In this document: positions 57,945-64,000 of the stretch, one piece after another | Position numbering within the stretch: the stretch's first letter is position 1 | Layout of the letters: each line of letters starts with the position of its first letter | Source: Paenibacillus sp. TCA20 | GTDB lineage: Bacteria > Bacillota > Bacilli > Paenibacillales > Paenibacillaceae | Direction of reading: 5' to 3' | Assembly (NCBI RefSeq): GCF_000732325.1 | Contig: NZ_BBIW01000013.1 | Coordinates: 62,001 to 126,000 of the forward strand | Length of the DNA stretch: 64,000 nt | Translations under genes and position numbers: made by a program | Notes under the pieces: generated by a model | What the model saw: only the letters and a program-made list of their open reading frames with translations | The model's database searches: none | What the model was told of the DNA's origin: nothing

Positions 57945-59060
57945 TTATTGCAATAAGGTTGAGGTCTTTGACAGAAGCGCAGACCGTTTCTGATCAAGGA
58001 GATAACGCCCATACGCCATCGGTTCACGATAACTGCGGGCCCATTCTTCCGGCATGCCGGCTTTGCGGAAGCCATAGCGCTGATCTCTTCCATTACATTC
58101 AATCAAGTAGAGTTCACCTGCCGTAGTAATACCCAGATCAATGCCAAGATCCGCAATATGGGGCAGCTCGGCAGACAGCTGGTGCGCTGCAGTCAGAGCC
58201 AGATGATGAATGCTGCTCTGGAGTTTATCTGCCGCAACATAAGGGAACACGCTTGGGAATATGCGATCCACCGTCATGGCAGATCCGCCGCGAGCCACAT
58301 TGGTGATAAAGGCATCCTTAGAGGCTGCCAGCTTGGCGAACATCCCCGTAACTCCCCATTCCCCGGTCATTCCTCGCTGTACAGTTACACGCAGATCAAA
58401 AGGCCGGTCTTCATAAGTGGCCAAAGGTATTCTTTGCTGAATGAGGTGCTCCTTGCGGGCAATGCGTGCGGGCAGAAAAGAAGGCAGTCGTCCTGGCTTG
58501 AATCTGACTTGTCTCCATTTGCCTGCTTTCGGATGGAAGGTGAGCTGCCACAAGGCACTTTGCTGTGTTAGCCGCATCACTCCGCTCCCAATACTCCCAT
58601 TGCTGGGCTTGATAATTAAATCCGAATGCTTACCCATCATCCGTGCTATGGATTGCTTGGTGGCCGGCTCTGTCTCGGGCAAATGAGGTACAAGCTCCGG
58701 ATTTCGGGATAACAGTTTATGAATCTGAACTTTTTTATATCGATTTCTAAGGTTATAGATGAGAATTCCCCGCTGGATCAGTCCGGCCATTTTATGGTGA
58801 CTGGCTGTAGTAAAGTACATAGCCCGATTATGGATAATATAGGGAAGCTTGATGGTATCCAGCTTGTATCTGTTCTCTGAGTGGATATAGGCTCTGCATG
58901 TCCCTGCAGACACATTGATATCTTCTAGTCTCATGTAACAGGGGATGAGGTTGTAGGAAGCTGCTGCCAGTTCATATTGTGCAAGAGATTCCTGCCCTGT
59001 TCTGCCATGAGGAATTCTCCGATAGATGGAAGAGTCCAGAAGGATGCCGACATGTTCCAT
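57945..59060 (-). CDS. YheC/YheD family coat-associated ATP-grasp protein
   Basis: A 371-residue full-length member. An N-terminal domain (about 1-110) is followed by the ATP-grasp: DLIIKPSNGSIGSGVMRL, RPFDLRVTVQRG, ITNVARGGSAM and LGIDLGITTAGELYLIECNGRDQRYGF. YheC and YheD of B. subtilis are spore-coat-associated. The substrate is unknown. AAAGGAGGAATC precedes the ATG. It is divergent from the decapeptide-repeat gene. Confidence 0.85.
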   Translation of the reverse strand: MEHVGILLDSSIYRRIPHGRTGQESLAQYELAAASYNLIPCYMRLEDINVSAGTCRAYIHSENRYKLDTIKLPYIIHNRAMYFTTASHHKMAGLIQRGILIYNLRNRYKKVQIHKLLSRNPELVPHLPETEPATKQSIARMMGKHSDLIIKPSNGSIGSGVMRLTQQSALWQLTFHPKAGKWRQVRFKPGRLPSFLPARIARKEHLIQQRIPLATYEDRPFDLRVTVQRGMTGEWGVTGMFAKLAASKDAFITNVARGGSAMTVDRIFPSVFPYVAADKLQSSIHHLALTAAHQLSAELPHIADLGIDLGITTAGELYLIECNGRDQRYGFRKAGMPEEWARSYREPMAYGRYLLDQKRSALLSKTSTLLQ

Positions 59061-59285
59061 AAGCTTGATTCCTCCTTTCGGATACGTTAAAGAAAGGCTC
59101 GATTCTATTCTATGATTGCAGGGTTTGTCCCGATAGGGAGAGCAGCCCGCATCGAGCCGTTGAAATACAAGCCTAAAATTAGGGCATGGACCTTCATGAA
59201 AGTATGCCCGGGGAGTGTCACATGCCTATAGCCGTGCATAGGATGCAGGAAAAACAACTGTTTTGTTATAAAGGAGCGAGCGGTT

Positions 59286-61640
59286 TTGAAAAAAAGAGGG
59301 AAGATCAAAACGAGTCAGAATGCAGCCAAACATCGTTTTGGGATAGACCCCGATACGAGTGAGCTTGCACTGCTGGACCGGTTAAATGCAGAGAGGGAGA
59401 GAGCCAAGGCCAGGCAGCAGAGTAAATTAAAAGCTGAGGCTGAGTCCACCGTCGTAGAAGAACCTGCCTCCAAAGAGATGGCTTCTATTGCCAGTGCGGT
59501 AATTGTACCCGAGCCTGTTCAAGAAGAGGAAACAGCCCAGGCAGCCCCTATCGCCCAGGCATCACCCATTACTACGTCAGATCAAACGCTGCAGCAGGAG
59601 ACAGAGCTTAGCCCGGTAATGAATATAATACAAAATACGCCACACAGTCACAGCCAGCTGATCACTGCGAAGAAAGAGCTGCTGGCAGAGAAACAGATGC
59701 CGGGAGGAGAAGCTTTTATCTACACGGAGGATATTAGCGAGCATGCCGTAACAGGTACACAGCTGGCTCCGTATGCCATCAACAGCGGACATATTAAACG
59801 GGGGGCTATAGGCAGCGAAGCTCTTCAGGAGTATGCGGTTACTGCCATTCATATTGCGGACCGGGCTATTGTGTCCTCCAAGCTGGCCGAAGCTTCTGTA
59901 CTTGATGAGCACTTGGTCAATGGAGCGATTTCGGGAGAGAAGGTAAAGGACGCGTCGATAACAGGCGGCAAGATCAAGGACGGCAGCATCACTTCCAGAA
60001 AATTAAGTGACCAGAGTATCGATGCAGACAAGATCGCGGATGGATCCATCGGTACACGGCACCTCGCCAATCTGATCATTTCCAGTGAAATGCTTCAGGA
60101 GGAATCCATTACACAGGAGAAGATTGCAGGTAGCGCAATAGGAACAAGACAGCTGGGGAATGGAGCCGTTCATAATTCCAAGCTGGCCGATGATGCCGTA
60201 ACCTCACGCAAGATAAGAGATGGAGCTGTAACCTCTGGAAAAATCGAGGATCGTGCCGTTCTTGCACAGCACGTGGTTCAGGGAGGCATAACCTCTGAGC
60301 ATCTTGCGGAGGGAGCTGTTGGCAAGCAGCACTTGTCTGCGAAGATTATTGATGCCGATCTGCTAGCTGAAGGGGCAGTCGGAGAAGCACATATTAAAAA
60401 GCAAGCGATAACCGGGATGCATATAGCGGAAGAGAGCATTGGTGCGAAGCAGATTCTGAAAGGGGCCATCGGCAAAGAGCAAATTGGACAGTCCGAAATC
60501 TTGGGTCATCACCTGGCGGATGGGATTATAAGCACCACGAAGCTAAGTGATCAATCCGTGGGCACGGCCCAGCTAGTTGAGCAGGCCGTGACTTCTTCCA
60601 AGATTGCGGACCAGAGCATTCTCGCAGCCAAAATTGCAGACCAGGCCGTGCATACGAGACATATTGCAGGGGGAGCAGTAGGCTCTGCTCATCTGTCCGC
60701 AGGTTCTATCTATGCTTGGCATTTGACCAAGGAGGCCATTGAGTCAGCACACATCGGTAACAGTACGATTCAAGCACAGCATTTGGGACCTGAATCTGTC
60801 ATCAGCACAGCGATCTCACCACGCAGTATTCAGCACCTGCACTTGAGTGATAACGCCGTGAATACGAAGAATCTGCAAATCTCATCCGTTACTACGGATA
60901 AGCTTGCCGACAAGAGTGTAACTGAATCTAAGCTGGCAACAGGGTCGGTAGATAGTGGAATTATTGCAGACAATGCGGTTCGCAGTGAGCATCTGGCAGA
61001 GAAGTCTATTCAGAATATTCATTTGACGCCCGGCAGTGTCGGCAGAGAGGTCATTCAAGAGCAGGCCATTCATACGGGGCATATTGCTGCCGATTCCATC
61101 GACAGCATTCATCTGAAGAAAGGCTCGATCCTCTCCGCTGCAATAGCAGACAACAGCATTAACACCAGGCATCTTGCTCAGGCAAGTATAACCGATCAGC
61201 TGATTAAAAATGGGGCCGTGCTTCCGCAGCATCTGTCAGACTATGCGGTTACGTCGCTCAAGCTGTCGCCCGAAAGTGTCTCGACCGATAAGCTGGCCAA
61301 TCTGGCCGTGACCGGAGCGAAGCTCGCGGACAGCAGTGTAACCGCAACGAAGCTAGCAGCGCACAGTGTGCTGAACGGACACATATATCCAGGATCCATC
61401 ACTCATGAGTCGATCCAGGCGAATGCGATTACGTCTGACAAAATTGCCCCCCAATCCATTCTTGATACTCATCTTGCGAATGAATCCGTGTTCGGCAAGC
61501 ATGTGGCAGAGCGGAGCATCCAGGGGTATCATCTCAAGAAAAGCGCCATTACAGCCGAGCATCTGGCCAGTGATCTGCGACAAGGTAATGGATTCTTGAT
61601 GAGACGATCACAGGACGCAAGCTTGCCCGTGCGAGTATAG
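59286..61640 (+). CDS. Decapeptide-repeat surface-type protein, N-terminal part (frameshifted)
   Basis: The 784-residue frame has a basic N-terminus (MKKRGKIKTSQNAAKHR), a low-complexity Glu/Ala region to about residue 150, then 61 consecutive decapeptides (residues 154-763) of the form [SA][IV]x[ST]x[HK][IL]Axx with no gap. The last 21 residues leave the repeat because of a missing base near 61589. Restoring one T after AAT gives LRQGNWILDE, exactly one repeat, and joins the frame to the next ORF. Start is TTG 59286 behind AAGGAGCGAGCGG. There is no signal peptide, so export is unexplained. The role is unknown. Confidence 0.8.
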   Translation: MKKRGKIKTSQNAAKHRFGIDPDTSELALLDRLNAERERAKARQQSKLKAEAESTVVEEPASKEMASIASAVIVPEPVQEEETAQAAPIAQASPITTSDQTLQQETELSPVMNIIQNTPHSHSQLITAKKELLAEKQMPGGEAFIYTEDISEHAVTGTQLAPYAINSGHIKRGAIGSEALQEYAVTAIHIADRAIVSSKLAEASVLDEHLVNGAISGEKVKDASITGGKIKDGSITSRKLSDQSIDADKIADGSIGTRHLANLIISSEMLQEESITQEKIAGSAIGTRQLGNGAVHNSKLADDAVTSRKIRDGAVTSGKIEDRAVLAQHVVQGGITSEHLAEGAVGKQHLSAKIIDADLLAEGAVGEAHIKKQAITGMHIAEESIGAKQILKGAIGKEQIGQSEILGHHLADGIISTTKLSDQSVGTAQLVEQAVTSSKIADQSILAAKIADQAVHTRHIAGGAVGSAHLSAGSIYAWHLTKEAIESAHIGNSTIQAQHLGPESVISTAISPRSIQHLHLSDNAVNTKNLQISSVTTDKLADKSVTESKLATGSVDSGIIADNAVRSEHLAEKSIQNIHLTPGSVGREVIQEQAIHTGHIAADSIDSIHLKKGSILSAAIADNSINTRHLAQASITDQLIKNGAVLPQHLSDYAVTSLKLSPESVSTDKLANLAVTGAKLADSSVTATKLAAHSVLNGHIYPGSITHESIQANAITSDKIAPQSILDTHLANESVFGKHVAERSIQGYHLKKSAITAEHLASDLRQGNGFLMRRSQDASLPVRV

Positions 61641-61654
61641 GCGAGGTTCATCTG

Positions 61655-62665
61655 ATGAACGCTTCCATTAATGAGGATGCACTTCAGGAGCAGATTATCG
61701 ACCGCCATCATATAAAGGCAGCTGCCATATCCACGGAGCATTTAGAGCATAGCAGTATTCAAGGCTTGCATATTGTAGAAGCTGCGATCGGTTCAGGGCA
61801 TGTTCAGGACAGTGCTATTCGCGAGCATCACCTGGCTCCAGGTTCGATCTCTTCCTACCATATTCAGCCTGGAACGATTGAAAGAGAACATATTCAGGCG
61901 CTGTCCATCACATCTGGACTTATTGAAGAAGGTGCAATCGGCAGTGCCCATCTTGCCAGTGAAGCGGTTCAGTCCATGCATCTTACGCCGGGTCTGATTC
62001 AGCATGAGCACTATGGTATATCCTCCATCTCATGGGAGCATCTGATGCCATTATCCATTAATGGTTCACATCTGCAGGCTGAGATCATTGGCTCCAATCA
62101 TTTGCAGCAGTCGTCCATTCAATCCAGACATATATTTGAAGGTGCCATTCTTCCTTACCATATTCGGCTTCGCAGCATCAGCGGTGCTCATATCGAGGAG
62201 GGGGCAATAGGTGCCGAGCTGATTCGAGATAAGAGCATCACAGGCGATAAGCTGGCTGAAGAGAGCCTTCCGGCTACAGTTCTTGCATCACGATCGATTA
62301 CAGGCGAGCAGCTGGCGGAACGAGTGATTGAAGGTCAGCATGTTGCAAAAGGAGCACTGTGTCCGGAGCACTTGAGCTTTACTCCGGTACGTTCGGCATC
62401 GAAGCAGCCGGTTACACAGCAGTTTGGGCAGTATATTATTGCTTTTGAAGAGGAAGAAGCAGCTGAGCAAGAAGTGGTAGTCTCCTTAGAGGAAGAGTTT
62501 GAATCCGCAGGCTATGTATTCGTCGCCATGTGCAATACGACAGACTTCCAAGTCAGTGTGATTGAGCAGCGTAAAGATTCCGTATTGCTCAAAATTAGAC
62601 GTTTGAGCGGGGACAGCAGTGATTACGGCACTGTATCTTGGATAGCTCTTGGCACCCAGCCGTAA
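61655..62665 (+). CDS. Decapeptide-repeat surface-type protein, C-terminal part
   Basis: This frame continues the same repeat: 24 decapeptides at residues 4-243, preceded in frame by TITGRKLARA and SIGEVHLMNA before the ATG. A different, 93-residue C-terminal domain follows, with an acidic stretch (EEEEAAEQEVVVSLEEEFE) and an ending TVSWIALGTQP. This recalls the C-terminal domains called WIAG-tail in Paenibacillus annotations; that name is from memory. A GAGG site lies 8 bases before the ATG, so re-initiation is possible, but coincidence is more likely. With one base restored the gene would give 1126 residues (59286-62665). Confidence 0.75.
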   Translation: MNASINEDALQEQIIDRHHIKAAAISTEHLEHSSIQGLHIVEAAIGSGHVQDSAIREHHLAPGSISSYHIQPGTIEREHIQALSITSGLIEEGAIGSAHLASEAVQSMHLTPGLIQHEHYGISSISWEHLMPLSINGSHLQAEIIGSNHLQQSSIQSRHIFEGAILPYHIRLRSISGAHIEEGAIGAELIRDKSITGDKLAEESLPATVLASRSITGEQLAERVIEGQHVAKGALCPEHLSFTPVRSASKQPVTQQFGQYIIAFEEEEAAEQEVVVSLEEEFESAGYVFVAMCNTTDFQVSVIEQRKDSVLLKIRRLSGDSSDYGTVSWIALGTQP

Positions 62666-62864: not shown

Positions 62865-63860
62865 GTGGGAGATAACAATCGAAAAATGAAGCGAAGCTCA
62901 AAAGCTCCCAGCCGGTCCGGTAGCCAGAAACGGGTGCTTGACAAGGGAGGCCATATACAGCAAACCGGAAAAATAAAGCCGCTGAAGAAGCGTCGATTAA
63001 CCAAACGAACGATTAAAAATCGCCGGACAACATCCCGAAATTCGGTCGAATCAGCTCAGCTGATCGCTGAGCAATCAGATCGTAATCACCTGAAACCTGA
63101 GGGACAGGAATCTGTCATTCATGAGCCAGTAGTCTCTGTCATAATTCCTGCAATGAATGAAGAAGCATTGATTGCCCGCGTCATTCGGGAAGCAAAGAGA
63201 ATCCATTCTTCCACGGAAGTGATCGTTGTTGTCAATGGTTCTACGGATCAGACAGAAGCGAGAGCCATAGCAGCAGGAGCTCGTATTATCACTTACTCAG
63301 AAGCTCTCGGTCATGATGTCGGAAGGCAAATCGGTGCCGATGCAGCTGCAGGGCAGGTGCTGCTCTTCATTGATGGGGATATGCTGATCCCTGCTCAGGA
63401 ATTGAAGCCCTTTGTTAATGCTGTATTGTCCGGAATCGATATTGCATTGAACGATTATAATGGCCCCGTTCGTACAGTGCCGGTTCATCCGGTCGTGGAA
63501 GCAAAGCACGCACTGAATACCATGCTCGGTCGATCGGATTTGAAGGGAGCCTCCATGACGGCCGTGCCGCATGCGATCAGCAGAACTGCATTTGAAATGC
63601 TCAAGGAAGGGGCATTACAGATACCTCCGTTAGCTCAGTCCATGGCGATCAAGCAGGGACTTCTCGTCAAAGCCGTCCATCGCGTGCCTGTTGGGAGATT
63701 AAATCCGCTAAGAAGAAAGGATCAACATAACCAAGACCTATTGACCGGCATTGTTCTAAGAGATCATGAAGAAGCTGTTCGCTGGCTAACGCTGCATCAA
63801 GGAAGCCGCGGCGGATTTACGGATCTCCACAGGGCAAGGCACTTGGTAAGAGCGAGGTGA
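62865..63860 (+). CDS. Family 2 glycosyltransferase with a very basic N-terminus
   Basis: The 331-residue protein starts at GTG 62865, 8 bases after AAGGAGG. Residues 1-65 are rich in Lys and Arg with no predicted fold. The GT-A domain begins VVSVIIPAMNEEALIARVIREA, has VVVNGSTDQTE and the metal motif VLLFIDGDMLI. It belongs to the glycosyltransferase 2 family; donor and acceptor are unknown. Its place right after the repeat protein suggests that it may modify that protein or a surface glycan. Confidence 0.82.
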   Translation: MGDNNRKMKRSSKAPSRSGSQKRVLDKGGHIQQTGKIKPLKKRRLTKRTIKNRRTTSRNSVESAQLIAEQSDRNHLKPEGQESVIHEPVVSVIIPAMNEEALIARVIREAKRIHSSTEVIVVVNGSTDQTEARAIAAGARIITYSEALGHDVGRQIGADAAAGQVLLFIDGDMLIPAQELKPFVNAVLSGIDIALNDYNGPVRTVPVHPVVEAKHALNTMLGRSDLKGASMTAVPHAISRTAFEMLKEGALQIPPLAQSMAIKQGLLVKAVHRVPVGRLNPLRRKDQHNQDLLTGIVLRDHEEAVRWLTLHQGSRGGFTDLHRARHLVRAR

Positions 63861-63870
63861 GCAGAACCGG

Positions 63871-64000
63871 ATGGGGACGAGAAGGATGGCTGTACGAATG
63901 AAGAGTTCGCGCGGGCTGAAGAAGCCGGAGAGCAGGAAGTCAAAATCACCAGGCAAAAAGAGGAAGTTGTCTGCTTCAGCACCATTACATTTAACCTTGC
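63871..64000 (+). CDS. Start of a gene with a basic N-terminus (partial)
   Basis: ATG 63871, 10 bases after GAGGTGA, opens a frame that runs off the window after 43 codons. The visible part is again full of Lys, Arg and Ser (MGTRRMAVRMKSSRGLKKPE, then KSKSPGKKRKLS), like the glycosyltransferase before it. The product cannot be named from this end. It is 10 bases from the previous stop, so it is in the same operon. Confidence 0.6.
   Translation, partial: MGTRRMAVRMKSSRGLKKPESRKSKSPGKKRKLSASAPLHLTL

Follow-up and report, generated by a model that had tools for sequence, protein, structure and literature searches.

What does a gene encode whose product consists, over most of its length, of decapeptides following one another under a strict pattern? 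This question is raised by positions 59286 to 62665 of a 64,000-nucleotide stretch of Paenibacillus sp. TCA20 DNA (contig NZ_BBIW01000013.1, positions 62,001 to 126,000 of the forward strand), which as a whole is called the window here. We favor, with moderate confidence, the reading that the protein is a trimeric spore-surface fibre that is organized like a phage tail fibre and ends in a tip of lectin fold. Three lines of evidence taken together make a surface-type filament linked to the spore the best reading: co-occurrence with the spore-coat gene spoIVA, the gene neighbourhood, and a predicted tip of the tail-fibre type.

The decapeptide array and its catalogued tail

The gene lies on the plus strand and occupies two open reading frames (ORFs). 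ORF A (59286..61640, 784 amino acids, TTG start) holds the head and the first repeat block and runs out of frame past a break, and ORF B (61655..62665, 336 amino acids), in a different frame, holds most of the second block and the tail. The head (59286..59714) starts with a K/R-rich stretch and continues as acidic, low-complexity sequence. It is followed by decapeptide block 1 (59715..61574; 62 decads, one at 59715-59744 and 61 from 59745), by the frame break (61575..61603), which places 29 nucleotides between repeat boundaries where the period needs 30, by block 2 (61604..62383; 26 decads) and by the tail (62384..62662). The sequence-only reading of this locus had described a head of 143 residues and a separate tail of 93, both of which we found as described, and 61 decads, one split decad and 26 further decads in a gap-free protein; the count was right, but the single open protein was not, as the repeats run in two frames here. 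The 10 residues preceding block 1, when that block is counted as 61, also match the decad pattern, so that a total of 89 decads can be defended as well as one of 88.

Residue preferences were counted over the 87 whole decads, each block in its own frame. Positions 2 and 7 were hydrophobic in all 174 cases (I, V or L at position 2 and L, I, V or Y at position 7, each in 87/87 decads), position 1 was S or A in 75 decads, and position 6 was H or K in 67 (46 H, 21 K), which confirmed the preferences first reported for these four positions. When the residues were shuffled 2,000 times and the best register was taken, the hydrophobic count averaged 54 and reached at most 68 of 174, as against the 174 observed. 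Pairwise identity among decads averaged 25% and no two decads were identical, indicating a diverged array held under a strict pattern and not a fresh expansion of DNA. What is conserved in the array is the pattern, rather than the sequence. As a separate observation, the 46 position-6 histidines would make a ladder along a fibre, for which metal binding is conceivable.

The tail passed the NCBIfam model NF012201 (WIAG-tail) with 79.8 bits against a cut-off of 33, over residues 254-334 of ORF B (62414-62656), and the protein belongs to this catalogued family. An alignment of 37 such tails showed invariant Q, G, Y, A, R, W and G residues. Pfam gave no match to ORF A at an E-value of 1, and to ORF B only a sub-threshold match to DUF3039. 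A pentapeptide-repeat protein was also considered for the repeats and rejected, the NCBIfam HetL model reaching an E-value of 0.0069 and 15.8 bits against a cut-off of 260.

Co-occurrence with spoIVA

The WIAG-tail was found in 69 of 75 genomes of the genus, in 259/295 genomes of the family (18 of 19 genera, the genus that we label g7 being the sole one without it), and in 179/198 genomes of the order. It was present in 67 of the 249 genomes of the class sample and in 4/299 of the phylum sample, all four from the window's own family, and none of 14 control genomes carried it. The core spore-coat gene spoIVA (TIGR02836) was detected in 178 of the class-sample genomes, and it accompanied the WIAG-tail in 67/67 carriers, as compared with 111/182 non-carriers, with 71 genomes lacking both (Fisher P = 2e-12, uncorrected for descent). 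Family cut-offs were passed by 66 of these 67 carriers and by 176 of the 178 spoIVA matches. All 11 tested g7 genomes lacked the WIAG-tail and spoIVA alike. The repeat protein was not found in these 11 genomes, nor in 17 of 18 genomes of the order that were positive for spoIVA and negative for the WIAG-tail; the exception (G099:C63:34309-38007) encodes a repeat protein in an open frame of 1416 amino acids, in a genome without a recognized WIAG tail. Taken together, the link to spoIVA consists of one co-loss and a broad distribution, and is strong evidence for an association with sporulation, though not proof of it.

These distributions bear on the possibility that the protein forms a filament on the surface of vegetative cells or has a structural role inside the cell. 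Long strict repeats fit any fibre, and the head, judged by eye, has no signal peptide, as would fit an intracellular protein; the same lack of an export signal argues against a vegetative surface filament, and the presence of spoIVA in every class-sample carrier, together with the absence of both from the tested g7 genomes, argues against this explanation in either form. We consider it unlikely.

Predicted tip fold and phage likeness

We modelled the tail from an alignment of 46 sequences, and obtained a predicted beta sandwich of six strands, in which 58 of 153 residues, nearly all in the tail, had a predicted local distance difference test (pLDDT) value of at least 90. The solved structures that Foldseek placed nearest to this model were the lectin SLL-2, the R1 and R2 pyocin fibres, phage tailspikes and Helix pomatia agglutinin. 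When Foldseek's own candidates were realigned to the predicted model, the tip superposed on the LKA1 gp49 tailspike (4ru4) with Z 9.9, on the R1 pyocin fibre (6cl5) with Z 9.8 (root-mean-square deviation 1.7, 78 residues aligned), on Helix pomatia agglutinin with Z 9.3 and on AP22 gp53 (4mtm) with Z 7.1. A viral library yielded 15 matches to the tip with E-values <0.001, the best of which was annotated as an H-type lectin domain (E-value 1.1e-5). At the level of sequence, Pfam PF21882 (Gp53-like_C) matched 18 of the 37 tails at some level, and 2 of 13 tails scanned singly exceeded its gathering score (27.4 and 26.0 against 24.9 bits). The tip is thus predicted to be a six-strand beta-sandwich of the tail-fibre/H-type-lectin fold. 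Families with this tip fold (tail-fibre tips, tailspikes and H-type lectins) are generally trimeric or built from trimers, and a trimer is therefore the natural inference for this protein.

The shaft resembled phage proteins as well. Its decads matched PHROG tail-fibre families with E-values down to 6e-87, and a similar stretch was present in 81 phage records at an E-value of 1e-5. A homologue of the repeats among solved structures was sought and none was accepted, the best match (E-value 0.0018) being to designed PPR proteins through many short, low-scoring stretches.

Gene neighbourhood

The sequence-only reading had placed the gene between ATP-grasp and glycosyltransferase genes, and this placement held both in the window and in most of the relatives. 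Upstream lies a divergent YheC/YheD-type (YheCD) ATP-grasp gene (57945..59060, minus strand; PF14398, 219 bits). Downstream, on the plus strand, are two family 2 glycosyltransferase genes whose products have K/R-rich heads, one at 62865..63860 (PF00535, 64.5 bits) and one from 63871 to the window's end at 64000, encoding 291 amino acids and extending beyond it; past the window's end, additional glycosyltransferases and a sugar nucleotidyltransferase are encoded. Among the 66 of our 80 named loci that had more than 20 kb of sequence, YheCD was found in 53, each of three family 2 glycosyltransferases likewise in 53, and the nucleotidyltransferase in 51. In 18 hand-picked regions of more distant Bacilli, a YheCD relative was nearby in seven and the nucleotidyltransferase in five.

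Two genes further downstream, outside the window, combine PF13524 with DUF3880, a pairing known from CgeB-type spore maturation proteins, a name that NCBIfam did not return. We also observed that several neighbouring enzymes, the glycosyltransferases included, have K/R-rich N-terminal heads like that of the repeat protein; these heads may serve in common to target the proteins to the spore coat.

This neighbourhood is informative for a further explanation, that the protein belongs to a phage, prophage or tailocin as its tail fibre, and acts against phages or is carried by them. Both the repeats and the predicted tip fold are of the phage-tail-fibre kind, as this would require. However, the site is chromosomal, with metabolic and glycosyltransferase neighbours that are kept in 53/66 loci, and no phage structural family was found among the neighbours scanned, which comprised phosphatidylserine decarboxylase, YheCD, glycosyltransferases, the nucleotidyltransferase and a VTT-domain protein. 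When viral contigs were scanned with patterns derived from tails of Paenibacillaceae, no relative of the WIAG-tail was confirmed, and a phage collection searched with a relative's tail yielded one phage, in two records, at an E-value of 0.6 over 53% of the domain. A tail fibre in phage service is very improbable on these grounds, and a prophage or tailocin remnant was disfavoured because of the neighbourhood and because that scan of viral contigs confirmed no WIAG tail.

Length of the array in relatives

Decads in the 80 named loci were counted with home-made counters, which differed by some decads. The longest uninterrupted runs under the stricter counter were 202 (L149), 193 (L156) and 155 (L133) decads, the looser counter gave 212 in a more distant genome (L183), and the shortest gene that retained its head had approximately 50 (L150), so that array length between species ranges from about 50 to more than 200 decads. 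The beginning of the array was much more uniform. Counted from the decad at 59715-59744, the first 31 decads aligned without gaps in all 30 of a hand-picked set of sequences, including a Fontibacillus and a Brevibacillus. When the window was compared with 18 distant loci, also picked by hand, in-place identity exceeded that of shifted registers in 9 of 12 five-decad blocks (for decads 26-30, 0.59 versus 0.24), while three blocks (decads 21-25, 46-50 and 56-60) were barely above the shifted controls. The gap-free start and the in-place identity indicate that the part of the shaft near its base is old and for the most part position-specific, with length differences lying further along.

Some relatives depart from this architecture. 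Short paralogues of 281 and 262 amino acids, at L083:8160-9005 and L084:8054-8842 (minus strand), adjoin YheCD; they retain the basic head and the WIAG tail with just one decad-like stretch, and the long repeat gene lies elsewhere in those genomes. In the more distant Bacilli L175, L177, L180 and L190, the WIAG frame continues past the domain as a long C-terminal extension that is acidic or of low complexity.

The range of lengths helps to evaluate whether the protein might instead be a coat or crust scaffold buried in the outer layers of the spore, or a polysaccharide carrier, with a tip fold that only trimerizes. Such a scaffold would share the spoIVA link and the neighbourhood, and it would accommodate the extensions beyond the tip in some distant relatives, where the tip is not terminal, as well as the two short paralogues that keep a WIAG tail beside YheCD with hardly any shaft. 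Nevertheless, a range of about 50 to more than 200 decads is easier to square with a projecting fibre, and the best matches to the tip include several receptor-binding fibre ends. We regard a buried scaffold or carrier as possible, with rather low probability.

A conserved upstream element

A promoter-like element, GTGnCA-N3-GCCYA-N7-GCATAnGATG (59215..59245, plus strand), precedes the gene and is conserved across the upstream regions of relatives. We compared 59 such regions, consisting of the window and 58 of the 80 named loci; those left out had no tail frame, were open at a contig end, had fewer than 900 codons or contained unknown residues. The core GCATAnRAT occurred in 56 of the 59 regions, being missing from L116, L142 and L155. 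When 34 non-redundant regions were aligned on this core, GTGnCA and GCC were retained at fixed spacing with almost no exception; as the alignment used the core itself, independent evidence comes from the flanking positions only. A looser, sigma-K-like pattern (AC-N14..18-CATAnnnT) was present in 22/59 regions (shuffle mean 2.0, maximum 6), a sigma-E-like pattern in 31/59 (shuffle mean 5.6) and CATAnnnTA in 8/59 (shuffle mean 2.8). Judged by consensus sequences, GCCYAWW would be a GerE box and GCATAnnAT a sigma-K/E -10 element. The full element, of which the genome has one exact copy, resembles a sporulation promoter accompanied by an activator site, and could possibly serve as a model for a late mother-cell promoter.

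The frame break

In three near relatives the gene is a single open frame from stop to stop: 1153 codons in Paenibacillus sp. FSL H7-0326 (L092), 1157 in Paenibacillus sp. 453mf (L093) and 1168 in L094. The record for L094 (genome G048) is titled Neobacillus mesonae MER 107, groups in the window's genus with the same gene order, and is probably mislabelled. Array length in the window was unchanged relative to the nearest relatives except at the break. Synonymous and amino-acid-changing codon changes relative to L092 numbered 103:24 before the break and 53:26 after it, a mark of coding constraint on both blocks; relative to L094 the ratios were near even (242:163 and 121:126). Because changes were mostly synonymous on both sides, the break in this strain is probably recent or a sequencing error. 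Read as sequenced, the gene would encode a subunit that lacks its tip.

In L116, L130 and L167, with no N in the stretch, and in L100, L106, L136 and L152, whose stretches contain N, the repeats likewise lie in more than one frame. Phase variation by frame shift is not claimed, as multiple frame switches in one gene look like sequencing error.

A model for a proposed fibre, and what weighs against it

We infer that sporulating cells would make the gene product as the subunit of a long, trimeric fibre that the spore then bears. The N-terminal head, with its basic stretch (followed in many relatives by a short motif like YVDNPxxxELxxLE), would anchor the fibre in the spore's outer layers; the residues at positions 2 and 7 would pack the core of a shaft of many decapeptides; and the WIAG-tail tip would close the trimer and may bind a glycan. 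The products of the adjacent ATP-grasp and glycosyltransferase genes might modify or decorate the fibre, perhaps by glycosylation.

Several results weigh against this model. The spore placement draws on co-occurrence and context, and the co-occurrence is clumped by descent, g7 counting as one loss. In the order, 18 of the 29 listed WIAG-negative genomes (16 further family-level negatives lie outside that set) carry spoIVA, the other 11 all belonging to g7, and the protein is thus not needed for sporulation. At 13 of the 66 loci, YheCD and these glycosyltransferases are both lacking. The window's own tail did not match PF21882, nor any Pfam family at an E-value of 10; the best Foldseek E-value for the tip against the Protein Data Bank was 0.0032; and a search of the tail profile against solved structures by sequence gave a best E-value of 0.54. 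Upstream, CATACA, which we take to be the sigma-E -10 consensus, was found in 0/59 regions (shuffle mean 3.0). No regulon was visible, the element having two more matches in the genome at 3 mismatches versus five for a reversed control pattern, and no second site above chance was present in the gene cluster. The gene in the window is itself frame-broken at the 29-nucleotide interval. Finally, a single-chain model of 31 decads was poor (mean pLDDT 50.6, predicted template modelling score 0.35).

The last of these results also bears on part of what had been proposed from sequence, namely a long beta-helix or fibre in a spore or cell surface filament. The 31-decad model showed, at low confidence, a short helical turn in most decads and no confident solenoid, leaving the beta-helix a conjecture; the spore or surface filament gained from the spoIVA co-occurrence, the neighbourhood and the predicted tip fold. 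That proposal had named an already characterized phage tail or coat protein as the outcome that would speak against it. A tail-fibre-tip fold was indeed predicted and the domain has an NCBIfam name, but among the papers searched the name 'WIAG-tail' turned up in just one, on an algal virus. Titles and opening lines of abstracts on Paenibacillus spore fibres, spore proteomes and tail fibres included no study of this protein.

A more specific version of the fibre model is more doubtful, and we offer it tentatively. A phage-type tail fibre may have been domesticated by sporulating Bacilli as a spore appendage, in which the conserved base of the shaft anchors, lineage-specific addition of decads sets the length (from about 50 to more than 200), the lectin-fold tip recognizes a surface glycan, and the position-6 histidine ladder could bind metal and stiffen the shaft. 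If the spore fibre is real, the majority of genomes in the order, along with certain other spore formers, would possess a spore fibre whose sequence is unrelated to those of BclA and ENA, and a phage-style recognition fibre would be employed by a resting cell.

Comparison with known systems

The closest known proteins are those of NCBIfam NF012201, with which the window gene shares its tail, and whose members among the relatives have the same head, decads and tail; the window gene differs in being frame-broken, and the library entry is a domain name without a function. H-type lectins (Helix pomatia agglutinin and discoidin) resemble the predicted tip in fold, with Z about 9, but their family PF09458 was absent from the 12 families matched by the 37 members at an E-value of 10, a search in which HMMER filters may hide weak matches. 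Phage and R-pyocin fibres and tailspikes (6cl5, 4ru4 and 4mtm) share the predicted tip fold, and phage fibres have similar decads, but the window gene is chromosomal, with no tail genes among the neighbours scanned. In addition, the longest strict runs in four phage proteins, chosen by hand from the 81 records, were 10, 16, 30 and 18 decads, whereas gap-free arrays in relatives reach 202.

Among spore structures, BclA-type exosporium fibres are alike in the role proposed here, that of a trimeric fibre on the spore surface. The BclA tip differs from the WIAG-tail tip, and the repeats differ as well, as the protein has no collagen match and a period of 10 with S/A and I/V at positions 1 and 2, not GXX. 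BclA is reported to form trimers (PMC10470788). The F-ENA appendages of Paenibacillaceae, as described in a preprint (PMC11952670), are fibres on Paenibacillus spores with trimer-based C3 symmetry, and are thus spore fibres from the same bacterial family; they are built from DUF4183 subunits, however, and Pfam finds no DUF4183 in ORF A or ORF B.

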